Source: Phycisphaerae bacterium (lineage in GTDB: Bacteria; Planctomycetota; Phycisphaerae; Phycisphaerales; SM1A02). Taken from it: a stretch of DNA of 47,288 nucleotides. Below the pieces are notes generated by a model. It was not told the origin of the DNA and ran no database searches. It saw nothing but the letters and a program-made list of their open reading frames with translations. Every line of letters begins with the position of its first letter. Within the stretch, counting starts at the first letter, position 1. The position numbers and the translations under genes are program-made. Positions 11,485 to 41,240 of the stretch are shown here, piece by piece. The stretch spans positions 1-47,288 of the forward strand of contig JAERSY010000064.1 of assembly GCA_016845245.1 (NCBI GenBank), in the 5' to 3' direction.

Positions 11485-13574
11485 TGCTTAACACACTTTT
11501 CACATTACTTCTATCAGCGAGTTGCCTCGCTACCCAATATCCTGAGACGCATCGTGGTGATACCGTAGATACCCTCCATGGTGTTGAAGTCAGCGATCCA
11601 TATCGATGGCTTGAAGACGATGTGCGTAAAAATGAAGAAGTCAACGCATGGGTTGAAGCGCAAAACGAAATCGCTTCAGCGTATCTTGACGCCATTCCTC
11701 AAAAGGAAGAGATTAAGCAAGCGCTGACTGATTCGATGAACTATCCAAGACAGTCTGCCCCATTTAATCGAGGTCCCTACTGGTTCCAATCTAGAAACAC
11801 TGGTTTGCAAAACCATAGCGTGATTTACTATGGAAGTAGTGAGGATGACATCAACAATGTCCTCATCGACCCAAACTCTTTCTCAAAAGATGGTACGAAA
11901 GCTCTTTCAACGTGGAGTGTTAGCCCAGAAGGGTCGTTTCTTGTTTGGGGTGTATCAGACGCGGGCTCAGATTGGAAAACTTGGCGCATTCGAAGCTTGA
12001 AAAACAAACGGCTTTACCCTGAGGTATTGAGCGACATAAAATTCTCAAGACCAGCATGGCTACCTGATGAATCTGGCTTCTACTACACGAGGTTTGTTAA
12101 CAATGATGGTACCGAACTCGTTGAAGTCACTGAGGGCTCGCAAATCTGGTTCCATCGGCTTGGCACTGATCAAAGCGAAGACTCCTTTGTCTATTACGAC
12201 AAAGAGAATCCACACCACTATTACGGCCCAACTGTCAGTGAAGACAACGGCTGGCTCATTGTTTCAGTGAATAAAGGAACCGATGCAAACAACGGCGTTC
12301 TCATTAAAGGGCCAACTGAAGAGGAACTCCGCTGGCTTGATGACAAGTTTGATGCAGAGATGTCTTTCATTGGCGAAATTGACAATCAACTTTGGTTCCG
12401 CACAAACAGAGATGCTCCGAATGGAAAAATCATCTCAATCAACCCCACGTTAGACAATGCAGAATGGGTTGATGTGGTTGAAGAACGAGAAGACATATTG
12501 CGAAGTGCGGATATTGTTGGCGGAAAACTAACCGTGACGTGGCTTCAAGATGCTGCATCCAAAGTCACTGTTCACAACGTGTTCGGCGAGGAGTTGTATA
12601 CAGTGAAACTTCCGGGCTTTGGAACGGCGGGTGGTTTTGGTGGTCGAAATGATGACCACCAAGTGTACTGGACCTATTCCAGTTTTGATCAGCCAATCTC
12701 AATTCACAAACTCAATCTTGACACCGAAGAAACTTCGCAAGTTTGGGAAGCAGAAGTCCCAATCAATCTTGACAACCTGACTGTGTCACGCGTATTCGTA
12801 ACAAGTACTGATGGTGCAAAAGTGCCCATGTTCTTAACACACAATAAAGACGTGAAACTTGACAACAACAACCCTGTGCTTCAATATGGCTACGGCGGAT
12901 TTGACAGCGCCATGTTGCCAAGATTTTCGCCTGCTCGCGCAATCTGGGTCTCAATGGGCGGCGTGTACGCAAGCACGTGCATTCGAGGTGGCAGTGAATA
13001 TGGGCGGACATGGCATGAAGCAGGGATGCATGAAAAGAAACAGCAAGTGTTTGATGACTTCATTGCATGCAGTGAGTGGCTCGTAAAAAATGGGTGGTCA
13101 AAACCATCAAAGATTGGCATTCAAGGCGGAAGCAATGGCGGCCTACTCGTCGGTGCTTGCATGACACAACGACCAGATTTGTTTGGCGCATGCCTGCCAG
13201 CGGTTGGCGTCATGGACATGTTGAGATTCCATCTCTTTACTGTTGGCTGGGCATGGACAAGCGAATATGGTTCGCCAGAAGATCCAGAAATGTTTCCACA
13301 TATCTTGAAATACTCTCCCTTGCACAATCTAAAGAAAGGTGTGTGCTACCCACCTACACTTGTCACAACAGGTGACACCGATGACCGTGTCGTTCCCGGA
13401 CACAGCTTTAAGTTTGCCGCAGAGTTGCAACACGTGCAAGGATGTAACAACCCAACGCTCATCAGAATTGAGACTCGTGCAGGTCATGGCGCTGGTAAAC
13501 CAATGCATCTTTGGATTGATGAAACCGCTGACAAATACGCGTTCTTGTACAAGAACTTAGGCATGGGAGAATAA
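11484..13574 (+). CDS. Secreted prolyl oligopeptidase (S9A family)
   Basis: Serine peptidase cleaving after proline in short peptides. 696 residues from ATG 11484, which overlaps the map stop as TAATG; a longer frame from 11355 lies inside map and is rejected. Residues 1-17 (NTLFTLLLSASCLAT) are a signal peptide, so the enzyme is probably periplasmic. Residues about 25-440 are the N-terminal beta-propeller (YRWLEDD motif near 37). The C-terminal alpha/beta-hydrolase domain carries nucleophile S550 in GGSNGG, acid in TGDTDDRVVP near 632-634, and H668 in RAGHG. It shares an operon with intracellular housekeeping genes, so its context gives little functional hint. Confidence 0.95.
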   Translation: MLNTLFTLLLSASCLATQYPETHRGDTVDTLHGVEVSDPYRWLEDDVRKNEEVNAWVEAQNEIASAYLDAIPQKEEIKQALTDSMNYPRQSAPFNRGPYWFQSRNTGLQNHSVIYYGSSEDDINNVLIDPNSFSKDGTKALSTWSVSPEGSFLVWGVSDAGSDWKTWRIRSLKNKRLYPEVLSDIKFSRPAWLPDESGFYYTRFVNNDGTELVEVTEGSQIWFHRLGTDQSEDSFVYYDKENPHHYYGPTVSEDNGWLIVSVNKGTDANNGVLIKGPTEEELRWLDDKFDAEMSFIGEIDNQLWFRTNRDAPNGKIISINPTLDNAEWVDVVEEREDILRSADIVGGKLTVTWLQDAASKVTVHNVFGEELYTVKLPGFGTAGGFGGRNDDHQVYWTYSSFDQPISIHKLNLDTEETSQVWEAEVPINLDNLTVSRVFVTSTDGAKVPMFLTHNKDVKLDNNNPVLQYGYGGFDSAMLPRFSPARAIWVSMGGVYASTCIRGGSEYGRTWHEAGMHEKKQQVFDDFIACSEWLVKNGWSKPSKIGIQGGSNGGLLVGACMTQRPDLFGACLPAVGVMDMLRFHLFTVGWAWTSEYGSPEDPEMFPHILKYSPLHNLKKGVCYPPTLVTTGDTDDRVVPGHSFKFAAELQHVQGCNNPTLIRIETRAGHGAGKPMHLWIDETADKYAFLYKNLGMGE

Positions 13575-14542
13575 TGGAGATTCTCCTTTCCAATCCAAGG
13601 GGATTCTGTGCTGGTGTACGCATCGCGATTGAAATCGTCGACCAAACACTCGATGCGCTCGATGAACATGAAGACCTATACGTCTACCATGAAATCGTGC
13701 ACAACAGACATGTCGTTGAACGCTTGCGTGAACGTGGCGCAATATTTGTTGAGTCAATTGATGAAGTGCCTGAGGGGCAACCCGTCGTGTTCAGCGCTCA
13801 TGGCGTTAGCCCACAAGTGAAATCAGATGCACGCAATCAAAAACTCATTCCCATTGATGCAACGTGCCCCTTGGTCACAAAGGTCCATGCAGAAGCAGTT
13901 CGTTATGCGAAACGCGGATGGCAGATTCTTCTGATTGGTCATAAAAATCATCAAGAAGTCATCGGCACATATGGCGAAGCGCCAGACTCGATTCAGATTG
14001 TTGAATCACCTGCTGATGTACCGAACCTTGAAATCGAAGATGAACACAAACTTGTGTATCTCACCCAAACCACGCTGAGTATTGATGACGCAGACCTCAT
14101 CATCAACGCCCTCAAAGAAGCGTTCCCCCATATTCACGCTCCCCCGAGCGACGATATCTGTTACGCAACAACCAATAGACAACTCGCAGTCAGAGATCAA
14201 GCAAGCGAGGTCGACTTAGTGCTCGTTGTGGGGTCAAACAATAGCTCAAACAGTTTGCGATTGACTGAGATTGCACATGCGGTCGATACGCCGTCTTATC
14301 TCATTGATGACGTCTCAATGCTTGATGAGCGCTGGCTCGAAGGTGTCCAAACCGTGCTCGTTACTGCAGGTGCAAGTGCGCCTGAACGACTTGTCAAAGA
14401 ACTCGTCTCACACCTCGTCACGCACTACGATGGCGTTCCTCCTGACGATATTGATTTTGATGAAGGCATGGCATTTGCGATGCCTGCATCGTTCAAATCA
14501 TTTATTGCATCGAAACTCACCGTTGAAGGCGAAGACCAGTGA
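13574..14542 (+). CDS. ispH: 4-hydroxy-3-methylbut-2-enyl diphosphate reductase
   Basis: Last step of the MEP isoprenoid pathway, yielding IPP and DMAPP with a [4Fe-4S] cluster. 322 residues. The three cluster cysteines are visible: C12 in GFCAGV, C98 in DATCPLV and C196 in DDICYATTNRQ. HGVSP and the VVGSNNSSNS motif match the family. The start overlaps the peptidase stop by 1 nt (TAATG) and the end overlaps rlmN by 4 nt (GTGA). All positions in this operon from hutU to rlmN appear coupled. Confidence 0.97.
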   Translation: MEILLSNPRGFCAGVRIAIEIVDQTLDALDEHEDLYVYHEIVHNRHVVERLRERGAIFVESIDEVPEGQPVVFSAHGVSPQVKSDARNQKLIPIDATCPLVTKVHAEAVRYAKRGWQILLIGHKNHQEVIGTYGEAPDSIQIVESPADVPNLEIEDEHKLVYLTQTTLSIDDADLIINALKEAFPHIHAPPSDDICYATTNRQLAVRDQASEVDLVLVVGSNNSSNSLRLTEIAHAVDTPSYLIDDVSMLDERWLEGVQTVLVTAGASAPERLVKELVSHLVTHYDGVPPDDIDFDEGMAFAMPASFKSFIASKLTVEGEDQ

Positions 14543-29776: not shown

Positions 29777-31228
29777 ATGGGACTATTTGGCAAAAAATCT
29801 AGCGACTCCGTAGAGTTTATTCCTGACCCTGAACAGGCCAACGCATGGTTTGATCGGGCGCGTCAAATGGCTGAAAGCCATAACTATGAATCTGCGTTCG
29901 CATTCTTCGCAAGCGGTCTAAAACTCGATCCTCGCGACATCGACGTTCACAAAGAAATCGTTCAAGTGGCATCGACCTACTACTCAAAAGGTGGAGGCGC
30001 TGCGACGAGCAAACAAGTAAAGCAAGTTGATGGCTCGACCACTGTTGAGAAATTCGTCACTGCCCTGTTTGTTTGGTGGCACAGCATTACCTCTGCAAAA
30101 TATGCGATGAAAGCGATTGAAACTGCTGTTGCAGCCGACCAAAAAGAGTTTGGCATTGAGATGGCAGACACTGTGCTTTCGCTCAGCAGCCGTGGTGACA
30201 AAAAACTAGCGTACAAAGAACTCAAAGCATTAATGGACTTGTTCAAATCGACCGGCGCTTGGGACCAAGCCATCAAAGTTGGACAAGCTGCACTTGCTGC
30301 GAAACCAGGCGATTCTGTCCTTGAACGTGAACTCAATGAATTGTCAGCTGAAAGGGCCATGTCCAAGGGTGGCTACGAAGAGATGGGTCAGGAAGGCGGA
30401 TTCCGAAAGTTTGTCAAGGATATGGATAAACAGAAGGAACTCGAGGAAGAAGAATCCCTCGCTGGCTCTGCGGGAAGTGACGAGAGAGTCCTTGCGAGAG
30501 CGAAGAAAGAGTTTGAAGAAAACCCTGCTTCACCAGATGCAATTGCGAAGTATGCGAAAATTCTAAAGAAGGATGAAAGTCCAGAATCGCAAAAACTTGC
30601 AAGCCAAGTCCTCATGCATGGTTTTAAAGAAACGCAGCAATACAGTTTCCGAATGGAAGCTGCTGACATCAAAATTGCGATGGGTCTAAAAACAATTGCA
30701 GGACTCAAGGAAGAGCACGAATCCTCGCCGACTGATGAATCCAAACAACGAATCGAGAACGCTGAAGCTGAACTTCGTGCGTTCCGTAAGAAGGAATATC
30801 AAGAACGCTCCGTTAAATATCCAACTGACAGGAAGATTAAATTCCAACTCGGCGAACTTGCGATTGAAGATGGTGACATTAATCTTGCGATGGAGTGTTT
30901 CCAGAAGGCAAAGGAAGAGCCGCGACTTCGCGTTCGCGCTGGTCAAGAACTCGGCCGCTGTTTTGCCTCAGAGGGCTGGTACGCGGAAGCCATTGGCGAG
31001 TTTAAGGAATCGATTAAATCGCTCGGTGGCGGCGACAACGATGCCGAACTTTCCCTTCGCTATGACCTCATGCAGTCTCTTGCAATGAAGGCAAAGAATG
31101 ATGAAAACATCGATCTTGCCAGAGAAGCCATGGAAATTTGTTCCGGCATTGCGAGAAAAGATATCTCTTATAGGGATATCCGCGATTGCAGGCGAAATCT
31201 TGATTCACTCGTCAAAGAGTTAGAGTAA
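29777..31228 (+). CDS. Cytoplasmic TPR-repeat protein
   Basis: 483 residues, no signal peptide; starts MGLFGKKSSDSVEFIPDPEQANAW. TPR-like helical repeats are clear at ANAWFDRARQMAESHNYESAFAFFASGLKLDPRD (about 22-55), AWDQAIKVGQAALAAKPGD (about 160-180), GDINLAMECFQKAKEEP (about 370) and GWYAEAIGEFKESIKSLG (about 405). A charged Glu/Lys-rich coiled segment lies between (about 215-260). Probably a scaffold; partner unknown. It is transcribed divergently from def and its last 9 nt overlap the end of kdsB. Confidence 0.82.
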   Translation: MGLFGKKSSDSVEFIPDPEQANAWFDRARQMAESHNYESAFAFFASGLKLDPRDIDVHKEIVQVASTYYSKGGGAATSKQVKQVDGSTTVEKFVTALFVWWHSITSAKYAMKAIETAVAADQKEFGIEMADTVLSLSSRGDKKLAYKELKALMDLFKSTGAWDQAIKVGQAALAAKPGDSVLERELNELSAERAMSKGGYEEMGQEGGFRKFVKDMDKQKELEEEESLAGSAGSDERVLARAKKEFEENPASPDAIAKYAKILKKDESPESQKLASQVLMHGFKETQQYSFRMEAADIKIAMGLKTIAGLKEEHESSPTDESKQRIENAEAELRAFRKKEYQERSVKYPTDRKIKFQLGELAIEDGDINLAMECFQKAKEEPRLRVRAGQELGRCFASEGWYAEAIGEFKESIKSLGGGDNDAELSLRYDLMQSLAMKAKNDENIDLAREAMEICSGIARKDISYRDIRDCRRNLDSLVKELE

Positions 31229-31906
31229 CGCCTGTCGTTTGACAAACGCTTCATATTGCTCGGGTGTATCAATGCCGCTTGGCTGCGGGCTTACGATTGC
31301 TGCTGAAATTGTGTAACCGCTGTCGATTGCACGCATTTGTTCGAGTCGGCGCTCTACTTCGTGTTGCGTTTGTTCCATGGACACGTACATTTGAAGAAAC
31401 GCTGACGTGTAGACGTAGAGGCCGATGTGTCTAAACGCCCCTTCGACGTAAGAACGCGTAAAGTCGAGTGCATGCTCTCCATCTAGCACTGCCTTGACGA
31501 CATTTTCGTTATCCCTCTCATCTGGCTGTAGCTCACACACTGCAGTTGCCATTGGATTGTCGCCAAGCGATTGAACAACCACATCGATGACGCTTGGGTC
31601 GAGTTCTGGTTCGTCGCCTTGCATGTTCACAACGATGTCGCAATCGAGCTCGCGAACGGCTTCTGCAATTCGGCTCGTGCCGTTGGGATGCTCCCCTGTC
31701 ATGATGCATTGCGCTCCGAACGATTGTGCAATGGACGCAATTTCTTGTGAATCGGTTGCGAGGTATACCTCATCAACAACAGACGCTCGCTCAGCAACTT
31801 TAATGGCATACTGAATGAGCGGTTTGCCTGTGGCATCCGCAATCATCTTTGCGGGAAACCGCGATGAATCAATGCGTGCTGGAATGACTGCGACGACCTT
31901 CGCCAT
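31220..31906 (-). CDS. kdsB: 3-deoxy-manno-octulosonate cytidylyltransferase
   Basis: Activates KDO as CMP-KDO for lipopolysaccharide inner core. 228 residues, slightly short for the family. Signatures are IPARIDSSRFPAKMIADATGKPLIQYA (nucleotide-binding N-terminus), VNMQGDEPELDP (metal/CTP Asp) and GIDTPEQYEAF near the end. This supports an LPS-type outer membrane. A GGGAG-like SD lies about 10 nt upstream of the ATG. The repeat array begins only 14 bp before the start codon, so its promoter must lie in or beyond that array. Confidence 0.93.
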   Translation of the reverse strand: MAKVVAVIPARIDSSRFPAKMIADATGKPLIQYAIKVAERASVVDEVYLATDSQEIASIAQSFGAQCIMTGEHPNGTSRIAEAVRELDCDIVVNMQGDEPELDPSVIDVVVQSLGDNPMATAVCELQPDERDNENVVKAVLDGEHALDFTRSYVEGAFRHIGLYVYTSAFLQMYVSMEQTQHEVERRLEQMRAIDSGYTISAAIVSPQPSGIDTPEQYEAFVKRQALL

Positions 31907-31920
31907 CCCCCCATTCTCCC

Positions 31921-32010
31921 TTAGGTTCTGACCCCGGACCTGACCCCGGACCTGACCCCGGACCTGACCCCGGACCTGGTACCGGACCTGGTACCGGACC
32001 TGACCCTATG
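31921..32010. repeat. Solo 12-bp tandem array (4 A units + 2 B units)
   Basis: Four copies of unit A (GACCCCGGACCT, 31930-31977), then two copies of unit B (GGTACCGGACCT, 31978-32001), then a terminal GACCCT. The left border TTAGGTTCTGACC is a variant of the inverted end seen at the transposase-flanking arrays. It occupies most of the kdsB-pyrG intergenic region and has no transposase of its own. Confidence 0.95.
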
Positions 32011-32031
32011 TTAAAAACGCGATTTTAGGTA

Positions 32032-32060
32032 TTGGTAAGATGGTTCCATCATGCTACAAT
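32032..32060 (+). promoter_or_regulatory. Promoter of pyrG, supports leaderless start
   Basis: TTGGTA (32032-32037), 17-nt spacer, TACAAT (32055-32060), then 5 nt to ATG 32066. It overlaps the upstream in-frame ATG at 32051, arguing that translation begins at 32066. It lies just beyond the right end of the 12-bp array. Confidence 0.6.
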
Positions 32061-32065
32061 CGCGT

Positions 32066-33883
32066 ATGCCCAACCAAGAAAAAGAGCAGACATTCTTAAG
32101 CCAGTTTGGCAAGAGCGAAGAGTCAAAAGAGTTTTATTCACCGATTCCAGAGGGGTATAAACAAGGCGAAACACGCTATGTCGTGGTTCTAGGGACTGTC
32201 ATGTCTGGCCTTGGAAAAGGTATTTTCAGCTCCTCACTTGCCAAATTGTTGCAGGACAAGGGATTGACCGTTACCCCAGTCAAGCTTGAGGGCTATCTCA
32301 ATATCGATTCAGGGACGCTGAACCCCTTTAGACATGGTGAAGTTTTTGTGCTCGATGATGGCACCGAGACAGACATGGACTTGGGTACCTATGAACGAAT
32401 CTTAGATCAAGATTTATCCCGACTGAACTTCACAACCGCAGGTCAAATCTATACCGAGATTCTTTCACGCGAGCGTGCTGGTGGTTATCTAGGCCGTGAT
32501 GTTCAAATGATTCCACACGTCACAGGCGAGGTCAAAAGGCGACTCCGCCAACTTGCAATTGATGCCGGAAAGAATGGCAAACAAGCAGATGTAGTCTTCG
32601 TTGAAGTCGGCGGCACAGTCGGTGATTATGAAAATGGATTCTATATCGAAGCACTACGTGAACTTGCGTACGAAGAGGGTCCTGACTCAACATGTTTTGT
32701 CGCATTGACCTACATCGTTGAACCACAAATCCTTGGCGAACAAAAATCAAAGCCCGCTCAACTAGGCATTAAACGATTAATGGAAACAGGCATCCAGCCA
32801 CACCTTGTTGCGTGTCGAGCTGAACTTCCGGTGACAGATACCGTCATCCAAAAAATCTCAATGTTCTCAAACGTGCCTAAAGAGTGCGTCTTTTCAATGC
32901 ATGACAGAGAATCGATTTACACCATTCCAGATGCGATGAGAGCTGAAGGATTAGACAGGCAAATTCTTTCCATTCTCTCCCTTCATAGCAAGGTCGACGC
33001 AATTGCAGAAGACAAAGCACGAGTTGACTGGAAGTCATACACGAATGCAATCTCTGCAGAGCGAATGCATAACATCAACATTGGCATACTCGGCAAATAC
33101 ACCTCGATTCGAGATGCGTATGCTTCAATCGATAAAGCCATTGAACATGCATCGACACACTTGTCTGCAAAAACCACGATTAAGTGGATTGACGTTACAG
33201 ATTTTGATACGACAAACGCAGATTCAAAGTTAGAAGCACAAGACTTAGACGCAGTCATCGTCCCCGGCGGGTTTGGTGAACGAGGCATCGAAGGTAAACT
33301 CGCATCAGTAAAGTGGGCACGGGAACATGGCATCCCCTTCCTGGGCATCTGCCTCGGATTCCAAATGGCTGTCGTTGAGTTTGCAAGAAACGTTGTTGGC
33401 TTAGACGGCGCAAACTCGACTGAGATTGAACTCAATTGCGCTTTCCCAGTCATCGATGAACTCCCAGACCAAAAAGAAATTGAAGGCCTCGGCGGAACGA
33501 TGCGACTTGGTGGGCAAGACGTCCAGATTACTGAGGGCTCATTTGCCGCACAACTCTTTGGCGCAACACATGTCAGAGAACGGTTCAGGCACAGATATGA
33601 AGTCGAACCAAAGTTCATTGAACAACTCACAAACGCAGGGCTCATCTTTAGTGGCAGGCATCCAGAGCATGAAATCATGCAGGTACTTGAATTGCCCGCG
33701 ACTGTACACCCCTACTTTGTTGCAGGACAATTCCACCCTGAACTAACAAGCAGGCCACTCAGGCCACAACCAATGTTTATGGGGCTAGTTGCTGCTGCAA
33801 TCGCTCACCGAACAGGCGAAACTTGTCCTTCACATATCGATGAGCGTTGGCTTGCGAGCAAGTCGACGCCCTCGACTGTATAA
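32066..33883 (+). CDS. pyrG: CTP synthase
   Basis: Aminates UTP to CTP with glutamine. 605 residues, about 55 longer than usual, with an N-terminal extension of about 35 residues before the synthetase domain. The P-loop region reads TVMSGLGKGI where most PyrG proteins have GGVVSSLGKG, and the next motif is LEGYLNIDSGTLNPF rather than the usual DPYxNxDxGTMxP. EVGGTVGD is conserved. The C-terminal class I amidotransferase has GICLGFQ (nucleophile Cys) and FHPE (His/Glu). It is clearly PyrG but from a divergent branch. The start is taken at ATG 32066 from the promoter position; 32051 adds five residues. A tRNA-Met and terminator follow. Confidence 0.93.
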   Translation: MPNQEKEQTFLSQFGKSEESKEFYSPIPEGYKQGETRYVVVLGTVMSGLGKGIFSSSLAKLLQDKGLTVTPVKLEGYLNIDSGTLNPFRHGEVFVLDDGTETDMDLGTYERILDQDLSRLNFTTAGQIYTEILSRERAGGYLGRDVQMIPHVTGEVKRRLRQLAIDAGKNGKQADVVFVEVGGTVGDYENGFYIEALRELAYEEGPDSTCFVALTYIVEPQILGEQKSKPAQLGIKRLMETGIQPHLVACRAELPVTDTVIQKISMFSNVPKECVFSMHDRESIYTIPDAMRAEGLDRQILSILSLHSKVDAIAEDKARVDWKSYTNAISAERMHNINIGILGKYTSIRDAYASIDKAIEHASTHLSAKTTIKWIDVTDFDTTNADSKLEAQDLDAVIVPGGFGERGIEGKLASVKWAREHGIPFLGICLGFQMAVVEFARNVVGLDGANSTEIELNCAFPVIDELPDQKEIEGLGGTMRLGGQDVQITEGSFAAQLFGATHVRERFRHRYEVEPKFIEQLTNAGLIFSGRHPEHEIMQVLELPATVHPYFVAGQFHPELTSRPLRPQPMFMGLVAAAIAHRTGETCPSHIDERWLASKSTPSTV

Positions 33884-33896
33884 TTACCGATTCACT

Positions 33897-33970
33897 GGCG
33901 ATATAGCTCAGTTGGTTAGAGCGAGGGATTCATAAGCCCTAGGTCACTGGTTCGAATCCAGTTATCGCCA
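33897..33970 (+). tRNA. tRNA-Met (CAU), elongator type
   Basis: 74 nt cloverleaf: acceptor GGCGATA pairs with TATCGCC, D-arm AGCTCAGTTGGTTAGAGC, anticodon loop TTCATAA (CAU), T-arm GGTTCGAATCC. The sequence resembles elongator tRNA-Met, but CAU could also mark a lysidine-modified tRNA-Ile. CCA is not encoded. It starts 13 nt after the pyrG stop. Confidence 0.95.
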
Positions 33971-33993
33971 CTTTGAGGAGAAGAGGAGAAAGT

Positions 33994-34020
33994 ACGCCTG
34001 CCATCTGGCAGGCGTTTTTT
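33994..34020 (+). terminator. Intrinsic terminator after pyrG/tRNA-Met
   Basis: Stem ACGCCTGCC / GGCAGGCGT with a 4-nt loop followed by six T residues. Confidence 0.9.
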
Positions 34021-34037
34021 AATACCATGCAATCTCC

Positions 34038-35021
34038 ATGCGAATATGTTTGTTAACGAACCAAGATATTGATGACCCTACGATTCGGGAGCACGATTGG
34101 CCCTGTGATCCAAGACCTTTCCTACCGGATGATGAATGGCATTTAGCAGTTCTCGGCGAGAAACACGAATCTGTTGCACAAGTTGAAGAACTCCTCAAAA
34201 TGGATTTTGACCTTTACTTCAATCTATGTGACGGCGCGGAAGACCAACCTGACTTGCCCGGAATCGAAGTCATTCATACCCTTGAAAAACATGGCGTTCC
34301 CTTTGCTGGCGCGACATCGACCTGCTACGAACCAACGCGCGAGGAAATGAAAAACGCTTGCACAAAACACGGCATTGCAACTCCTAAATTTGTGTTTGCG
34401 AAGAATCAACAAGACGTCGACAGAGCCGCCGAAGAATTGCAGTTCCCATTGTTTGTCAAACACCATAATAGTTATGCAAGCGTGGACATCAGCAGATCCT
34501 CAAAAGTCATGTCTGTTGCTGGATTGAACAGGCAAGCAAAGAAAATCATTTCAAAACATGGCGCCGCACTCATCGAAGAATACATTGATGGTATTGAGTG
34601 CACTGTCCTCGTCACTGAAACACCCGGTAAACCAAGCGAACCAACCGTCTACACTCCTGTGCAGTATGAGTTTCCTGAAGGCGAGTCCTTCAAACATTCA
34701 AATCTGAAGTTTGTCGATTATGCAGGACTTAAAACGTTTCCAGTACCTGACAAAGAACTTTCTAAACGGTTACAAGATGAATGTGCTCGATTCTTTGTTG
34801 CGATGGACGCACAAAGTTTCGGGAGATGTGATGTGCGTGTTGCGAAAGATGGCACACCGTACATTCTTGAAATCAATATGAATTGCGGCGTCTACTTTGA
34901 ACCAGACGCTTATGGAAGTGCAGACTTCTGCATCGCCCTTGACCCAGACGGGCATGTTGGATTCACAAAGAATCTCGTTGATGCAGCTTTTTTTAGGCAT
35001 AAAGCGGGCCAGAAAAAGTAA
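34038..35021 (+). CDS. D-Ala-D-Ala ligase-like ATP-grasp protein
   Basis: 327 residues. ATP-grasp fold: N-terminal domain to about 100 (FDLYFNLCDGAEDQPDLPGIEVIHTLEKHGVPFAGATS matches D-Ala-D-Ala ligase family sequence), then FPLFVKHHNSYASVDISRSSKV (ATP lysine and loop), LIEEYIDGIECTVLV, RCDVRVAKDGTPYILEINMNCGVYF (metal Glu and Asn). The substrate may differ from D-Ala because the C-terminal substrate loop is not the standard one. It sits alone after the tRNA terminator, not in a mur cluster. TACCAT lies 9 nt before the ATG. Confidence 0.82.
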   Translation: MRICLLTNQDIDDPTIREHDWPCDPRPFLPDDEWHLAVLGEKHESVAQVEELLKMDFDLYFNLCDGAEDQPDLPGIEVIHTLEKHGVPFAGATSTCYEPTREEMKNACTKHGIATPKFVFAKNQQDVDRAAEELQFPLFVKHHNSYASVDISRSSKVMSVAGLNRQAKKIISKHGAALIEEYIDGIECTVLVTETPGKPSEPTVYTPVQYEFPEGESFKHSNLKFVDYAGLKTFPVPDKELSKRLQDECARFFVAMDAQSFGRCDVRVAKDGTPYILEINMNCGVYFEPDAYGSADFCIALDPDGHVGFTKNLVDAAFFRHKAGQKK

Positions 35022-35025
35022 TCGT

Positions 35026-35053
35026 TTGTATTGTCACGTTGCTGCAGTACACT
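35026..35053 (+). promoter_or_regulatory. Promoter of the HAF-type gene
   Basis: TTGTAT (35026-35031), 16-nt spacer, TACACT (35048-35053), then 6 nt (AAAGAG) to ATG 35060. This supports 35060 rather than TTG 35039 as start. Confidence 0.5.
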
Positions 35054-35059
35054 AAAGAG

Positions 35060-36322
35060 ATGTTCGAGTTTGCAATCACAATATGTTTGATGAATCTAGA
35101 TTCACAATGCTATGAAGTGACTCCGATTCAAAACACGCTTACTGATGTACATATTGTGTCACTGAACAATGACGCTACGTTTACTGGCTCAATCAATGAC
35201 CAGATGGTGATTTGCTCTGAGAACGAAGTGCATCACGCAATTGATTCGTTGTATGAATCAGTAGGCATCTTTATCAATGACAGTGGTGTCGCCGCTGGCA
35301 TAGGCACGAATAGCGTGTTGCAAGATGACAAACTTGTGATTGTTCACCCTTCTGGAAAAACTGTTATTGAAAACATTGATGGCAGTGAGGGATGGGCTTC
35401 GCTGACTGGGATTACTGAGTTTGGCTCAGTAAGTGGAAACTATTCGGGTGGTTCTGGCTCGAGCGAGTGGCTTGCGTTTATCTACACAGAACAGAATGGA
35501 GTTCAGTTCATTGATCCTATGGGGGAGGGTTCATACGCGTTTGCAATTTCTGAGTACAACCAAGTTGCTGGATATTTTGAATATGGAAATCAACTTCGCG
35601 CAATGACTTACTTTTATGGGCTGTGGACGGATTTGAACGAAGAACTTGAGTTACAAGGAAACGCTCACGCTCGTTTCTTCGATGAAAACAATCGAGTACT
35701 CATCGTTGAATACTTCAAAGGGTTTTTAAACTGCATGTGGTATGACCAAGTCTTTGACAATGTCATTCCGATATATTCGTTCCCGCCAGGCACATTCTCA
35801 CTTAAAGTCACCCCATCAATAAGCGGCAAAGTTGCATTTAGTTGGGCAACTAGTGACGGCCTCACGCACCTCGCGAGGTGGTCAGATCTAAACGGGTTTG
35901 AGGAAGCAGTGCTTCATGATAAGGTGCTTGGCATTAGTGCTGACGCAATGAGCGACGATGGAACCGTTGCGTGCACCGCGCTCATTCACCCCTTCTATCA
36001 CCAAGAAGCTTATGTATGGGAAAGCGAATCGCCATCTCCTTACACTGTGAATGACACACTGCCGAACAATCCAATTACATCGCACATCATCGAAATGAAT
36101 GACGTTGGTGACATGCTTGTTCGCTCAGGGAACGAGTATTTTTTGCTTGAACCACGTTTAGCAGCAGATTTAAACCAGGATGGCAATGTGAATGTCACTG
36201 ACATCCTGCTTTTGATTGATGCATGGGGCGAATCGCCAGTTGAAACATGCTCTCCTGATATCAATAGAGACGGTGTTGTGAATGTCAGCGACTTACTGAT
36301 CCTTATCAACGCTTGGCAGTAA
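35060..36322 (+). CDS. HAF-type repeat protein with two dockerin-like EF-hands
   Basis: 420 residues from ATG 35060. The short N-terminal hydrophobic stretch (FEFAITICLMNL) may be a weak signal. The body has loose repeats of the kind found in HAF/extracellular repeat proteins (GIFINDSGVAAGIG, AISEYNQVAGYFEYG, FDENNRVLIVEYF), expected to form a propeller. The C-terminus holds two dockerin-like EF-hands, DLNQDGNVNVTDILLLIDAWG and DINRDGVVNVSDLLILINAWQ, at about 371-420. The same tail ends two other proteins here. Role unknown; export and calcium binding are inferred. Confidence 0.8.
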   Translation: MFEFAITICLMNLDSQCYEVTPIQNTLTDVHIVSLNNDATFTGSINDQMVICSENEVHHAIDSLYESVGIFINDSGVAAGIGTNSVLQDDKLVIVHPSGKTVIENIDGSEGWASLTGITEFGSVSGNYSGGSGSSEWLAFIYTEQNGVQFIDPMGEGSYAFAISEYNQVAGYFEYGNQLRAMTYFYGLWTDLNEELELQGNAHARFFDENNRVLIVEYFKGFLNCMWYDQVFDNVIPIYSFPPGTFSLKVTPSISGKVAFSWATSDGLTHLARWSDLNGFEEAVLHDKVLGISADAMSDDGTVACTALIHPFYHQEAYVWESESPSPYTVNDTLPNNPITSHIIEMNDVGDMLVRSGNEYFLLEPRLAADLNQDGNVNVTDILLLIDAWGESPVETCSPDINRDGVVNVSDLLILINAWQ

Positions 36323-36363
36323 CTTTTAGGTCTGACTTTGTTTGATTTGTATACACTGCAAGA

Positions 36364-38037
36364 ATGAAACAATCATTCTTAGTTCCCTTTATTGCAGTTT
36401 GTGTTTCTTGGAATGCAATTGCAGACCCCGCACTACCGCCACTTGGCTACGCTCCACCGATTATTCTTGAACAACTAGGCAATCATCGAAGAGCGATTGC
36501 GACTGACTCAGAGGAAGCACGAATGTGGTTCGACCAAGGGCTTGCACTGATGATTGGTTTCAATTTTGACGGAGCCATCGCGTCATTTAGGCAAGCAACG
36601 ATTCATGATCCAAACTGTGCAATGGCATGGTGGGGAATTGCGTATGCTTCAGGTCCCAATCAAAATAACACAGCCATTGAACCGCCTAAAGATGAATGGT
36701 CATACGCGGCTGCGCAGAAAGCATATGAACTTCGAGAGTTTGAAACTGGAGCAAATCAAGCATTAATCGATGCACTTGTCCATCGATTTAACTATCCCGT
36801 GCCTGAAGATTTAACCGAGCAAAACACTGCGTACTTACATGAAATGGAATCCGTCTTGGAAGAGTTTCCAATGGATCCAGATGTTGCAGTTTGGACAGCA
36901 GAAGCAATGATGGTTTTGCAACCGTGGGAATATTGGTCACTTGAGGGTGAACCGTTGAATAACACGCCAAAGTTTCGTGCGTTACTTGAAGAAGTCATGC
37001 GAGTTCATCCCAATCATCCCGGAGCAAACCATCTGTATATTCATGCGATGGAAGCTTCGCCTTGGCCAGAAATTGCAGAACCCGCTGCAGACCGTTTGAT
37101 TGATTTAGTGCCTGCAGCTGGGCACCTTGTCCATATGCCTTCTCATATTTGGATACAAACTGGAAGATACGATGACGCAGCAGATTGCAACCGCCGAGCT
37201 GCTGCCCTCGATGACGCTTGGTTTGAAACTGATCCAAATGCGAGTGAGTACCGTTTTTACATGGCGCATAACCGGAACTTCCTTGCTTGGGCTGCGATGC
37301 TTCAAGGCCGAAAACGTGAAGCAGTTTCAGCTTCGCGTGCAATCGAACAAGAAGTTCCAGCGCCATTGTTAGAAAAGTTTAGTTTCTTTAGTGATGGGAT
37401 GCTTTCGTCGAAATGGCATGTGCTTGTTCGATTTGGAATGTGGGAGGAAATCATTGCTGAACCGACACCTCCTGAGTGGGCAGTCGTTGGACGATCTTTA
37501 CAACACTATGCGAGAGGAATTGCATTTGCTAACACCAATCGAATCGAAGAAGCCCGAAATGAACTTGCTTTGTTTGATGAAGCAGTTAAGAGTATTCCTG
37601 AAGAAGACTGGATGCTTGCTGGTCAACCTGCAGTTGACATTATGCCGCTTGCAAGACTTGTTCTTGTTGGGGAAATTGAGTTTAAAGCAGGAAACCGCGA
37701 AGAAGGACTTGATGCACTTGCTCAGGCAATCGAAATAGAAGATACCTTGAAATATGCTGAACCTGCACCATGGATGATGCCTGCAAGGCATGCCTATGGT
37801 GCACTCTTGATTGTCGACGGACAATATCAAAAAGCGGAAGAGGTTTACTTGAGGGACCTGGAGAGTTTCCCCGCAAATGGCTGGGCGCTTCTGGGACTTC
37901 GTGATGCACTTCGTGGACAAGGTCGACTAGAGGAAGCGGCTCTGACGGACAAAGCATTTAAACACGCTTGGAGAAGCGCAGATGTCCTGCCGCCCGCATC
38001 TTGCTATTGCGGCAGCACCGTTAAACTTTCAAACTAA
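36364..38037 (+). CDS. Secreted TPR-repeat protein
   Basis: 557 residues. A signal peptide covers about 1-20 (SFLVPFIAVCVSWNAIA). TPR motifs: ARMWFDQGLALMIGFNFDGAIASFRQATIHDPNCAMAWWGIAYA (about 50-95), HMPSHIWIQTGRYDDAADCNRRAAALD (about 255-285), NTNRIEEARNELALFDEAV (about 390-410) and DGQYQKAEEVYLRDLESFPANGWALLGL (about 480-510). Proteins of this layout are common in planctomycetes and marine bacteria, function unknown. TACACT (36352-36357) lies 6 nt before the ATG. A repeat array starts 1 bp after the stop codon. Confidence 0.88.
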   Translation: MKQSFLVPFIAVCVSWNAIADPALPPLGYAPPIILEQLGNHRRAIATDSEEARMWFDQGLALMIGFNFDGAIASFRQATIHDPNCAMAWWGIAYASGPNQNNTAIEPPKDEWSYAAAQKAYELREFETGANQALIDALVHRFNYPVPEDLTEQNTAYLHEMESVLEEFPMDPDVAVWTAEAMMVLQPWEYWSLEGEPLNNTPKFRALLEEVMRVHPNHPGANHLYIHAMEASPWPEIAEPAADRLIDLVPAAGHLVHMPSHIWIQTGRYDDAADCNRRAAALDDAWFETDPNASEYRFYMAHNRNFLAWAAMLQGRKREAVSASRAIEQEVPAPLLEKFSFFSDGMLSSKWHVLVRFGMWEEIIAEPTPPEWAVVGRSLQHYARGIAFANTNRIEEARNELALFDEAVKSIPEEDWMLAGQPAVDIMPLARLVLVGEIEFKAGNREEGLDALAQAIEIEDTLKYAEPAPWMMPARHAYGALLIVDGQYQKAEEVYLRDLESFPANGWALLGLRDALRGQGRLEEAALTDKAFKHAWRSADVLPPASCYCGSTVKLSN

Positions 38038-38038
38038 C

Positions 38039-38105
38039 TTTAGGGTCAGACCCCGGACCTGACCCCGGACCTGGTACCGGACCTGGTACCGGACCTGACC
38101 CTAAA
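38039..38105. repeat. Left 12-bp array of the RAYT unit (2 A + 2 B)
   Basis: Inverted ends TTTAGGGTCAG (38039-38049) and CTGACCCTAAA (38095-38105) enclose two A units (38049-38072), two B units (38073-38096) and a terminal GACCCT. It begins 1 bp after the TPR stop and ends 18 bp before the transposase stop codon. Confidence 0.95.
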
Positions 38106-38123
38106 TTGAATTCTAAAAAAAAA

Positions 38124-38702
38124 TTAGTCTTCATTTTCTTTTCGAAGCAAGTTCCGAACGAACTCCAATTCTTCCTTTGTAAGAATGTTCTTTGACCACC
38201 ATTCATCTCTTTTCTTAGTGTTCCACCAGCTTGGCTCGATAAGAAATCGAGGCATAAAACTGTTCGCCCTCAAGAATGCACTTGACCATTTCCAATCTTC
38301 TGCTGACTTTACAAGATTTGCATTCACAGGATTTTGTTCAACGTACATCAAAGTTCTTGCTAAATGGAAACCATCCCTTACACGAGAGGAGAAGAAACGA
38401 TCTTGCCACAAGTGGCCTGAACGGTCATTTTTGCGATTAAAGTACTGTGCATACACCCCTTGCAACGTTTTAATCCAACGACTGACCTGGGAAGTCTCCT
38501 CTTTTTTGATCAACACATGGAAGTGATTGGGCATTAAAGAGTATGCAATAACGGGCACTGAATGCTTTTCGCATTCTCTTGAAAGGAGCTTCATAAAATA
38601 GGCATAATCAAACTCGTCGCGAAAAGTAGTTCTTCGTCCGACTCCTCGGTTGACTAAGTGGTAGTACTGATCATCTTGTATGTTTCTATGTAGTCTAGGC
38701 AT
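38124..38702 (-). CDS. REP-associated tyrosine transposase (RAYT, Y1/HUH family)
   Basis: 192 residues, typical length. The HUH motif is NHFHVLI with H60 and H62; the nucleophile Tyr is Y84 or Y87 in QGVYAQYFNRK. Family features follow: NDRSGHLWQDRFFSSRV, LMYVEQNPVNANLV and DWKWSSA. Such enzymes nick and join single-stranded DNA at flanking repeat palindromes and are thought to spread them. The gene lies between two arrays built of 12-bp units (38039-38105 and 38769-38817). TATGGT (38709-38714) is 6 nt before the ATG. The reading frame is intact, so the unit may be active. Confidence 0.93.
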   Translation of the reverse strand: MPRLHRNIQDDQYYHLVNRGVGRRTTFRDEFDYAYFMKLLSRECEKHSVPVIAYSLMPNHFHVLIKKEETSQVSRWIKTLQGVYAQYFNRKNDRSGHLWQDRFFSSRVRDGFHLARTLMYVEQNPVNANLVKSAEDWKWSSAFLRANSFMPRFLIEPSWWNTKKRDEWWSKNILTKEELEFVRNLLRKENED

Positions 38703-38768
38703 GGCAATACCATAAGACTGTTTTCACCTTTCTCATTTTCAATGACCAATTTTCTTGCTCCCGCAAAA

Positions 38769-38817
38769 AGGGTCAGACCCCGGACCTGACCCCGGACCTG
38801 GTACCGGGTCTGACCCT
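38769..38817. repeat. Right 12-bp array of the RAYT unit (2 A + 1 B variant)
   Basis: Perfect 12-bp inverted ends AGGGTCAGACCC (38769-38780) and GGGTCTGACCCT (38806-38817). Inside are two A units (38776-38799) and one B variant (GGTACCGGGTCT, 38800-38811). It lies 66 bp upstream of the transposase start. Confidence 0.95.
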
Positions 38818-38831
38818 ATAAATGGGTTAAG

Positions 38832-38861
38832 AAAAAAGCTCGACTGAATAGTCGAGCGTAA
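38832..38861 (-). terminator. Duplicated terminator hairpin beside pseudo-tRNA-Ser
   Basis: Stem GCTCGACT / AGTCGAGC with a 4-nt loop and, read on the minus strand, a T tract. It is a copy of the tRNA-Ser terminator at 38942-38971 with one base changed in the loop. Confidence 0.75.
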
Positions 38862-38864
38862 AAA

Positions 38865-38940
38865 CGGTGGGGATGGGATTCGAAAGGCATGAAGAGGAAA
38901 GCCATCACCGGTTTTTAAGCCGTCGCCTACGGCGCCGGCA
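38865..38940 (-). pseudogene. Decayed partial copy of tRNA-Ser
   Basis: The 3' half matches the intact tRNA-Ser 111 bp away: T-arm GGGATTCGAA (plus strand) and the CCCCACC acceptor strand are kept, while the variable arm and anticodon arm have diverged. The anticodon loop reads CTTAAAA on the minus strand. No 5' acceptor strand (GGTGGGG) is present, so it cannot fold as a full tRNA. Confidence 0.8.
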
Positions 38941-38941
38941 T

Positions 38942-38971
38942 AAAAAAAGCTCGACTGAAAAGTCGAGCGTA
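38942..38971 (-). terminator. Intrinsic terminator of tRNA-Ser
   Basis: On the minus strand GCTCGACT, TTTC loop region and AGTCGAGC are followed by seven T residues, directly after the tRNA 3' end. Confidence 0.88.
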
Positions 38972-38975
38972 AAAA

Positions 38976-39063
38976 CGGTGGGGATGGGATTCGAACCCAT
39001 GAAGAGGACAAGCCCCTTACCGGTTTTCAAGACCGGCGCCTTCAACCGCTCGGCCACCCCACC
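38976..39063 (-). tRNA. tRNA-Ser (UGA)
   Basis: 88 nt with a long variable arm, as expected for tRNA-Ser. Acceptor GGTGGGG pairs with CCCCACC, discriminator G, anticodon stem-loop CCGGT-CTTGAAA-ACCGG (anticodon UGA), T-loop TTCGAAT. CCA is not encoded. Confidence 0.96.
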
Positions 39064-39141
39064 TAAAGGGTTTAAAAGCGAGCGGGTATTCTAGCAAAGT
39101 TTGCATTTAGCACCCCCCCTTCACTGATACAATCCTCACTC

Positions 39142-40101
39142 ATGTCGCTCCCCTTCATCCAAAAGATTCTGCCGTACGCTCGGTACTTCAAGTACATGCG
39201 AAATCTAAAACGAGCACAGCGGGACGCAGCAAATCCTTCAGGCGGAATCCCACTCGTTCAACCTGTATCATTTGTTCTCGGTTGCGGGCGTTCAGGAACA
39301 ACCATCACCGGCAAACTGCTTACTCAGCACAGAGAGGTCCACTATCTTCGGGAACCATATCACCTGTGGAGAGCAATTGAGCCATCAACAGATATGGTGA
39401 GATTATTCGGCGACGCCGGTGTTGAGCCACGATGCATATTTAATGAGCAAGATGCCACAGAAGCTCTAGTTGAGCGATTCAACGGTTGTATGAGAGGCGA
39501 ACAAGCACGCGGAACTGCACGCAAGAAGGTCATCGAAAAAACACCAATTCATGCGATGCGAATTCCATTGCTACACGCTTGTTCACCAGAATCAAAATAC
39601 GCACATCTAGTTCGAAATGGTCTCGATGTCGTGCAATCAGTTGACCGCCTTTCAAAAGATTCAAATTTTGGTGTCGCTGGTAAGGGGACATGGAATCGAT
39701 GGTGGGGACGAGACAATTGCAAATGGGATGCACTCAAACATGACGCAATTCAGTTTGAGTATTTCGCCGACGAGGTCCCAACGCTTACTACAGACATCCA
39801 AATGGGTGCTCTTGAATGGATCATCAGCGTAATGGAAGTCTCAAAACATAAAGAACTTCTCGGCGAATCACTTATCGAAATCACTTACGAAGAGCTTACA
39901 ACTGAAACTGAAATGAGTTTTCGAAGATTGACTGAACACTTTGGCATCCAACCTTATGATGAATGGATGACGAATTGTAAGGAGACTATCAATCCTCCAC
40001 GAAGATATGACGTACAGAGCATAGAGTTACCGCCAAACATGTGCAAAGCGTTTAACGAGTTGCAAGAAAAGTATGGATTCCAAGGTAGAGCAACCTCATG
40101 A
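39142..40101 (+). CDS. Sulfotransferase-family protein
   Basis: 319 residues. The PAPS 5'-phosphosulfate loop is FVLGCGRSGTTITGKLL (about 48-64). The 3'-phosphate motif is HLVRNGLDVVQSVDRLSKDS (about 154-173). The sequence KVIEKTPIHAMRIPLL between them is also typical. Such proteins sulfate glycans, lipids or proteins in many planctomycetes; the acceptor is unknown. No signal peptide. TACAAT (39128-39133) lies 8 nt before the ATG. The stop overlaps the start of the lipoprotein gene (ATGA). Confidence 0.88.
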   Translation: MSLPFIQKILPYARYFKYMRNLKRAQRDAANPSGGIPLVQPVSFVLGCGRSGTTITGKLLTQHREVHYLREPYHLWRAIEPSTDMVRLFGDAGVEPRCIFNEQDATEALVERFNGCMRGEQARGTARKKVIEKTPIHAMRIPLLHACSPESKYAHLVRNGLDVVQSVDRLSKDSNFGVAGKGTWNRWWGRDNCKWDALKHDAIQFEYFADEVPTLTTDIQMGALEWIISVMEVSKHKELLGESLIEITYEELTTETEMSFRRLTEHFGIQPYDEWMTNCKETINPPRRYDVQSIELPPNMCKAFNELQEKYGFQGRATS

Positions 40102-40487
40102 AACGGTTTCTTCTCATGCTTTTACTTCTTACTGGTTGTCACACTTACCATCCTGCAACAGTCACCGTGAAAACAAATGCTGGCGTTCCTGTACAAGGTG
40201 CCCAAGTCACAGCGTATCCACTCTATCTCTTTAATCCAACTTCAAACAGCATTCTGTTCACGGGGTCATCCGAGATTCTCGAACCCTTCACAGCAAACGG
40301 CGATTCAAACTACACAGACGAACATGGGCAAGCAATTATTCAGATTGTTGAAGGCAATCCCATGCAACTCAGAGTCGCTGCCCCTTCCCATCAATCGTAT
40401 GAAGGCATCATCGAAATCACAACCCAAAAAAGTGCATACTTAAAAGCCACTCATCCGAGCCCAACACTCAACGTCACCGCTGAATAA
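40098..40487 (+). CDS. Small lipoprotein with carboxypeptidase-regulatory-like fold
   Basis: 129 residues. A lipobox, LLLLTGC (Cys14), ends a short hydrophobic signal, so it is probably membrane-anchored outside the cytoplasm. The rest is beta-rich: VTVKTNAGVPVQGAQVTAYPLYL and YTDEHGQAIIQIVEGNPMQLRVAAPSHQSYEG resemble the CarboxypepD_reg/Ig-like transthyretin-type fold. No catalytic residues. Co-transcribed with the sulfotransferase (4-nt overlap). The stop codon abuts the stop of the convergent sdhB with no gap. Confidence 0.8.
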   Translation: MKRFLLMLLLLTGCHTYHPATVTVKTNAGVPVQGAQVTAYPLYLFNPTSNSILFTGSSEILEPFTANGDSNYTDEHGQAIIQIVEGNPMQLRVAAPSHQSYEGIIEITTQKSAYLKATHPSPTLNVTAE

Positions 40488-41240
40488 TTATTTAGACTTG
40501 TTTGGCTTGAAGATTTTGAATAAGCGAGTCAGCGGATCATAATACTCATCGACGACGCGCTCCTTAAGTGGAATAATCGCGTTATCAGTAATCGTAATAT
40601 GTTCCGGACACACCTTCGTGCAACACTTTGTGATGTTGCAGAAACCAAGACCTTGCGTTTCCTTCAAATCTGATATGCGGTCTTCAACATCAAGCGGATG
40701 CATTTCATACGCTGCAGATTTCACAAACATCGCAGGACCAATGTACCCTTGATGTTCATGGTGATCACGCAATACATGACACACATCAGAACAAAGGAAG
40801 CATTCAATACACTTTCTAAACTCTTGCACGCGTTCAACATCGTCTTGTTGAATCCGCCATGTTCCATCTTCAGCATCGGGCTTGCGTGGCTTGAATGGTT
40901 TAATCTTCATCTTTGCTTCATAGTTGTATGAAACATCAGTAACCAAATCTTTTACAAGTGGGAATGCTTTCATCGGCTCAACCGTAACTGGTTGAGTCAA
41001 ATCGAGCGAGGACAAACGTGTCATGCACATGAGTTTGGGCATGCCATTGATTTCCGCTGAGCATGAACCACATTTACCCGCTTTACAATTCCAGCGGACA
41101 GCTAAGTCAGGCGCTTGTTCTGCTTGAATATCGTGGATTGCATCAAGGACCACCATGCCGTCACCAACTTCTGAAGTGTACTCTTCAAAGTAGCCGCCTT
41201 CCCCTTCTCCGCGCCAAACTCTAAACGTTACTTGCGCCAT
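40488..41240 (-). CDS. sdhB: Succinate dehydrogenase/fumarate reductase iron-sulfur subunit
   Basis: 250 residues; carries electrons from the flavoprotein to quinone. The [2Fe-2S] site is CKAGKCGSC with a later LMC. The [4Fe-4S] site is CIECFLCSDVC. The [3Fe-4S] site is CNITKCCTKVCPEH. Last gene of sdhCAB; its ATG overlaps the sdhA stop as TAATG. The gene organisation and the single long SdhC resemble the non-classical menaquinone-type complexes rather than the four-subunit E. coli type. Confidence 0.95.
   Translation of the reverse strand: MAQVTFRVWRGEGEGGYFEEYTSEVGDGMVVLDAIHDIQAEQAPDLAVRWNCKAGKCGSCSAEINGMPKLMCMTRLSSLDLTQPVTVEPMKAFPLVKDLVTDVSYNYEAKMKIKPFKPRKPDAEDGTWRIQQDDVERVQEFRKCIECFLCSDVCHVLRDHHEHQGYIGPAMFVKSAAYEMHPLDVEDRISDLKETQGLGFCNITKCCTKVCPEHITITDNAIIPLKERVVDEYYDPLTRLFKIFKPNKSK

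Follow-up and report, generated by a model that had tools for sequence, protein, structure and literature searches.

A dispersed family of ordered 12-bp repeat arrays linked to a RAYT-like gene in a Phycisphaerae bacterium

A real dispersed repeat family is linked to a RAYT-like gene in the genome of a Phycisphaerae bacterium (assembly GCA_016845245.1, here G000; 1.91 Mb in 156 contigs). The window, that is, the whole stretch of 47,288 nucleotides that was analyzed, contains the gene and three arrays of the family. Gene and repeats probably form a TIRtron-like unit that pairs a TIRYT with a cognate family of repeats, in which arrays would be mobilized by the enzyme and altered in unit number by slippage or unequal exchange. 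We infer that the arrays are non-autonomous elements mobilized by the enzyme, with slippage altering their unit number; mobilization is the best-supported, as yet unproven, reading of the sequences compared here. The interpretation offered by the sequence-only reading of this DNA is thus supported in part, and most of the details that it had observed hold, with four corrections.

The enzyme gene and the arrays in the window

The gene (38124..38702, minus strand) had been read as a Y1/HUH transposase, which is borne out by an intact 192-aa ORF of a RAYT-like or TIRYT Y1 HUH enzyme with H60-F-H62, Y120 and N124 and a Pfam Y1_Tnp score of 65.6 bits (cutoff 23). H60, H62, Y120 and N124 are invariant in an alignment of seven proteins of the genus and also in a wider alignment of 29 sequences, which shows the motif WQGRFKSFxVQxDxHLL, presumably usual in TnpA-REP subclass 2.1 (RAYT group 1). 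The best solved relative, by sequence (E 1.7e-6) and by fold (E 5.3e-9, AlphaFold2 model with mean pLDDT 88.1 against PDB), is 4ER8, a RAYT with bound REP hairpin. The NCBIfam RAYT model NF047646 gave 78.1 bits, slightly below its cutoff of 80. No C-terminal HTH (Bac_DnaA_C, HTH_23, HTH_28) was found by Pfam up to E 1, with filters that drop most matches above about 0.1. IS200/IS605 elements have hairpin ends that act on one strand; like their TnpA, the enzyme has a predicted HUH-Y1 fold, but it differs from them in scoring 31.7 bits with the NCBIfam IS200 TnpA model (cutoff 55) and in that the two RAYT copies of the host genome are just 48% identical. The second copy (L062, G000:C54:8479-9027), beside what we take to be a truA-like gene, is accompanied on the 5' side by GGGTCTGTCACGGGGTCAGACCCC-type repeats, and no array cluster is reported on the other side.

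The arrays consist of A units (GACCCCGGACCT) and B units (GGTACCGGACCT) between the ends AGGGTCAG and CTGACCCT. The left array (38042..38102, plus strand), which lies on the 3' side of the gene, comprises a AGGGTCAG end, A units at 38049-38060 and 38061-38072, B units at 38073-38084 and 38085-38096, and GACCCT at 38097-38102, the inverted end CTGACCCT covering 38095-38102. The right array, on the 5' side (38769..38817, plus strand), has a AGGGTCAG end, A units at 38776-38787 and 38788-38799, and then GGTACC, GGGTCT and GACCCT. Hence the grammar of A, B and GACCCT, which both arrays were said to share, fits the left one, but the right one holds no complete B unit. Similarly, the proposed inverted ends exist in the individual arrays and, as AGGGTCAGACCC, at the two outer limits of the unit, but the two arrays themselves are oriented identically. 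The unit was also said to insert 1 bp past a stop codon; the array starts 4 bases after TAA (38035-38037), and a distance of 1 bp requires the preceding TTT to be included in the element. Finally, a third array had been overlooked (31930-32007, or 31923..32007 on the plus strand with its degenerate left end AGGTTCTG), a solitary one with four A units (31930-31977), two B units (31978-32001) and GACCCT (32002-32007), located in a divergent intergenic gap between genes that we take to be kdsB-like and pyrG. Over the window, CCGGACCT occurs 12 times against 0.40 expected, a number attained in none of 100 shuffles.

Several further observations were made in this region. An Rfam search of 31000-40500 at gathering thresholds returned two tRNAs alone, and no family reached threshold on the window's arrays. 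A phage or plasmid origin was considered and dropped, as neither phage nor plasmid sequences matched the left array at E 0.001. After the right array, 38866-38975 looks by eye like a degraded partial tRNA-Ser copy plus its hairpin; the sole tRNA-Ser found by ARAGORN is the intact one at 38976-39063. Across the genus, TACAAT was read by eye a few bases upstream of the pyrG ATG (32010-32070 in the window and sister loci), a position that suggests a leaderless pyrG transcript.

A set of 28 arrays was parsed with coordinates and strands set by eye, on which all calls of order and orientation rest. Their building blocks are hexamers: for the most part, GGGTCA, GGGTCT or GGACCT takes turns with GACCCC, GGTACC or GACCCT, and some variants occur. 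In each of the ten arrays that hold both complete units, A comes before B (AB in four, AAB and AABB in two each, ABB and AAAABB in one each), and five of the 28 have neither complete unit. As single-stranded DNA, the left array is predicted to fold into a three-way junction (z -4.56 on the plus and -3.29 on the minus strand); corresponding values are -4.48 and -4.19 for the right array, -3.70 and -4.65 for an array on contig C71, -2.39 and -2.00 for a piece of an array from the related genome G010, and a weak -2.16 and -1.86 for the pyrG array; two rows (L116) were excluded for erroneous coordinates. The fold predicted for two A and two B units has an outer 9-bp stem around two hairpins, A-A (CCGG) and B-B (GGTACC), and it may matter in the cell.

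Dispersal, cassettes and placement

Other copies in the host genome, on which the proposed link between arrays and enzyme depended, are plentiful: a strict array 20-mer has 27 exact matches on 11 contigs of G000 (reversed control, none). The same 20-mer is absent from 60 relatives and from 396 other genomes of a class sample (some genomes are common to both sets). The end palindrome GGGTCNGACC occurs 35 times forward and 35 times reverse in G000, where its reversed pattern occurs 2 times and once; most places count once per strand because the pattern is nearly palindromic. Among the 13 genomes of the genus, RAYTs were detected in four (G000, G007, G008 and G011; ten RAYT-like genes in all), which are exactly the four with the highest GGGTCNGACC totals (G011 103, G000 70, G008 40, G007 38; the nine others 2-17). 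Since reversed-pattern controls reach 13 per genome, most of the small counts where no RAYT was detected are close to background, and some such genomes, among them G006 (17 vs 7) and G012 (12 vs 1), are above their controls. Looser relatives of the array were seen in G011 (arrays of 13- and 26-bp period with GACCTGACCC and GGGTCTGACCC words) and in G010 (two arrays of related but different hexamers). Because no RAYT was detected in the G010 assembly (84% complete), arrays can exist without one; the contrary outcome named for the proposed link, arrays being as common in genomes without the enzyme, is not seen for the strict array in the genomes searched, with G010 as a partial exception.

The G010 arrays are one reason to consider that the arrays are passive VNTRs, slippage-prone units spread by recombination or chance, with the RAYT having merely landed between two of them. 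Unit number does vary between arrays, and near-identical 12-bp repeats may arise independently, as suggested by a viral contig (L269, IMGVR_UViG_3300037264_001775) with a long 12-bp repeat at about 13400-13657 that includes one exact array 20-mer. By our own reading of its letters, this stretch reads through in one frame as QVWGQVRG, and as a relative of the arrays it was set aside as a likely chance match. The passive explanation is nevertheless quite improbable, as the repeat-rich genomes of the genus are the RAYT carriers and repeats shared between the two flanks are frequent around RAYTs of the wider clade.

The latter were surveyed by a scan of genome contigs, which found at least 80 loci in many phyla. 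In 72 of the 80 listed loci (eight were dropped for short flanks), words of at least 14 letters were shared between the flanks in inverted form at 29 and in direct form at 17, palindromic words possibly counting in both classes, compared with 0 and 1 of 56 controls taken farther out (Fisher P 2.9e-9 and 2.4e-4). At 26 of 63 listed loci (the other 17 of the 80 were omitted, many for short flanks) and at 6 of 56 controls, tandem repeats of 10-40 bp, not all of them TIR-like, were present no more than 300 bp from the gene (P 1.7e-4). The closest RAYT found, 59% identical, is on contig C13 of G007, a member of the same genus as the host, and is bracketed by AGGGTCTGGTACGGACCTGGTACAC repeats with the hexamer vocabulary of the arrays. 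In addition, a gammaproteobacterial bin (L264) has its own composite 12-bp arrays adjoining its RAYT, with units GGTGCAGACCCC and GGTCCGCACCAG, so that the modular array style recurs. A long degenerate 12-bp array with higher periods of 60 and 120 bp was also noticed on the 5' side of another RAYT (L111, G011:C103, 2240-2825).

Eight array-spacer-array pairs, or cassettes, were found in the host genome, with spacers of 61, 61, 61, 61, 68, 69, 54 and 51 bp. Two spacer families were distinguished, one with the two C55 cassettes (79% identical) and the other with C65, C93 and C107 (71-75%), whereas the highest identity in 50 shuffles per pair was 52-58% and the outside 150-bp flanks were 47-53% identical; the second C55 spacer and that of C93 are a borderline pair (58% vs a shuffle maximum of 56%). 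The spacers of C70, C89 and C96 (three of the eight cassettes) resemble no other spacer. Since spacers are related and flanks unrelated, five or more of the cassettes appear to have been copied whole, the behavior expected of mobile units, and would need copying rather than slippage, contrary to the VNTR explanation.

Paired arrays 51-69 bp apart are doublet-like and, as the enzyme is nearest to the TnpA-REP 4ER8, they recall a canonical GTAG REPtron or REPIN system. Such a system is very improbable here: the arrays are co-oriented in seven of the eight pairs (two in C55, and C65, C70, C93, C96 and C107) and ambiguous in C89, the enzyme falls short of the NCBIfam RAYT cutoff as given above, and a canonical GTAG REP system was ruled out as GT[AG]G occurs within 10 bp of the hairpin foot in none of 22 arrays.

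Placement is mostly intergenic: 15 of 17 classed array sites overlap no mechanical ORF call besides the RAYT itself, while sampled genomes of the genus (G007, G011) are about 91% coding. Contig-edge or single matches (C42, C43, C48, C106, C138) were excluded, several of the 17 sites end at a contig edge, and the two exceptions (C93 and C107) overlap an unverified ORF. A stop codon lies within 8 bp at eight of the 17 sites, on the left side at seven and on the right at C111. With the window and G007 as background, the left-side seven correspond to P 1.2e-5 if all intergenic bases are equally likely and 0.0017 if all gaps are. The own repeat of G007 was intergenic at four of five sampled loci and inside an ORF call at one. 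Regarding empty sites, the end of the TPR gene lacks the unit in all five orthologues found, but downstream gene order differs, leaving no strict empty site. Target duplication was rejected, the longest shared end word at 12 sites being 1-6 bp with no common length.

Altogether, dispersal, mostly intergenic placement, the constant order of A before B and the RAYT-like gene between two arrays uphold the earlier idea of a REP-like system whose short units keep a set order. Placement outside ORF calls and close to stop codons (left-side seven, per-gap background) would also suit arrays that are host regulatory or insulating elements, such as terminators or binding sites, kept between genes, with the enzyme just their old source. 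This explanation is unlikely; the lack of any Rfam family at threshold on the window's arrays speaks against it, and so do orthologous gaps in related species.

Different repeat families in the same gaps

Three orthologous gaps picked by the analyst were compared over the genus, namely the pyrG gap in the window and two with long flanks on contigs C71 and C59. In the pyrG gap, covered for 11 of the 13 genomes, G000 carries its own array and G010 a related but different one. G007 has four copies of GGGAC[AT]GTCCC, the repeat of its own C48 RAYT, and G011 three GACTCCGAGT-type words, the repeat of its own C87 RAYT. G006 shows a GGGGTCTGACCCC palindrome pair and G005 another palindrome; a weak pattern or none was found in G004, G002, G001 and G009, and none was seen by eye in G012. 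In the C59 gap (11 genomes), G007 again has four copies of its own repeat, G011 a degenerate copy next to an extra gene, and G008 a degenerate word resembling its own repeat; no repeat was seen in G005, G002 and G001, and G003, G006 and G009 are resolved on one side only. Among 13 loci compared for the C71 gap, two copies of AGGGTCAGACCC enclose a spacer in G007, a single such palindrome is present in G009 and a one-letter variant in G001, while G011 and G002 are bare (40-41 bp) and G003, G004, G005, G006 and G012 have other sequence. The G008 contig begins within the G007 spacer, with identical overlap, and was not counted as independent because G008 is listed with 6% contamination. Identical intergenic letters are shared by the end of L285 (G007:C33) and the start of L291 (G008:C174), contigs of two species, and contamination from a G007-like genome may account for G008 C174.

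Thus, at two of the three gaps a sister species holds the repeat of its own RAYT, unrelated to the G000 array. By exact words, two of the three gaps hold the own family of G007, compared with 2 of 142 in the background (P 0.0006, or 0.004 with a generous background), and one of the three holds that of G011, compared with 2 of 112 (P about 0.05), rising to two only with the degenerate C59 copy included. With just three gaps, partly chosen by convenience, the replacement pattern is a lead rather than proof. For host elements, several species do have some palindrome at some gaps; however, same-gap palindromes are unrelated in sequence between several species, and the C71 gap is bare in two genomes.

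Shared sites involve the enzymes as well. At the start of a permease-like gene, identified by eye, G010 has a solitary array, and G007 (C48) and G008 (C7) each have a RAYT, with repeats on both sides of the former and on at least one side of the latter. These two enzymes are 48% identical. Likewise, by eye, two divergent RAYTs, L112 (G011:C87) and L113 (G008:C232), both adjoin an apparent rpmH; they are 41% identical, vs 51% between G011 C87 and G008 C131. Inheritance in place at one locus is not favored, with fast divergence as a possible escape, and repeated arrival at the same sites is leaned to because RAYTs that share a site are not mutual closest relatives.

Known systems, mechanism and significance

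The earlier contrast with known RAYTs, said to accompany REP or BIME palindromes, omits the TIRYT/TIRtron sister type, described in 2013 as RAYT-like enzymes with inverted-repeat ends, some of which share a GGGGWSAS motif; some of these repeats occur scattered, singly or as dimers and clusters (Di Nocera 2013, PMC3733652). According to the accessible text of that source, the host system agrees with this type in having a Y1 HUH RAYT homologue with a catalytic Tyr, a gene flanked by outermost inverted AGGGTCAGACCC and non-GTAG repeats, and, as in some TIRYTs, a family dispersed as singles, dimers and clusters. Of the GGGGWSAS motif, the terminal AGGGTCAG differs by one letter, and the exact GGGGTCAG occurs only within the array, at the A-A junction on the minus strand. 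Unlike what the same text describes, the host has 12-bp two-unit chains in fixed order, arrays that flank the gene as direct repeats and array-spacer-array cassettes, although the paper's figures may show single features of this kind. The parts of PMC6006769 at hand place 20 of 26 TIRYTs in TnpA-REP subclass 2.1 (RAYT group 1), with no REP-like sequence reported there, and give the TIRYTs of that subclass a C-terminal HTH, from which the 192-aa host enzyme differs in the Pfam result above. The likeness to REPIN/BIME systems with RAYT, as far as covered in PMC3686654 and PMC8266576, lies in short intergenic repeats, a dedicated HUH enzyme and doublets; unlike them, the host repeats lack GTAG, have 12-bp units and form direct rather than inverted doublets. 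Literature searched by name and by repeat letters, with subscription papers thinly covered, gave no account of ordered two-unit arrays. Measured against the accessible descriptions of TIRtrons, the ordered two-unit chain with its predicted three-way-junction fold is new.

For the TIRtron-like unit, we count the enzyme motifs and predicted fold, dispersal, the strict form being confined to G000 among the searched genomes, the constant order of units, copied cassettes whose flanks are unrelated, and mostly intergenic placement. Against it are counted the lack of a strict empty site and of a consistent target duplication, direct-repeat flanking arrays, the weak pyrG fold, the G010 arrays with no RAYT detected, the three of eight unmatched spacers and the G007 repeat inside an ORF call at one of five loci. 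In the mechanism proposed, the enzyme would recognize the repeat in its folded, single-stranded form, make a nick at the foot of the fold, and move or copy single arrays or whole cassettes into intergenic gaps, often immediately downstream of a stop codon; slippage or unequal exchange would then alter how many units the A run and the B run contain. A more elaborate version is rather doubtful, namely that the TIRYT has a modular substrate, in which A-then-B hexamer half-sites build the three-way junction that the enzyme reads, and that the systems of the genus replace one another at fixed addresses, each species' address holding the family of its own enzyme.

The name TIRYT was given in 2013 on the basis of sequence (PMC3733652), and the literature searched, as far as its texts were accessible, yielded no experimental test of a TIRYT on its repeats. 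An array of two A and two B units is a ready 61-base substrate. With ten RAYT-like genes in four genomes, several repeat families, sister genomes with no RAYT detected and gaps occupied by different families, this genus makes enzyme-repeat co-divergence, target choice and repeat growth directly comparable.
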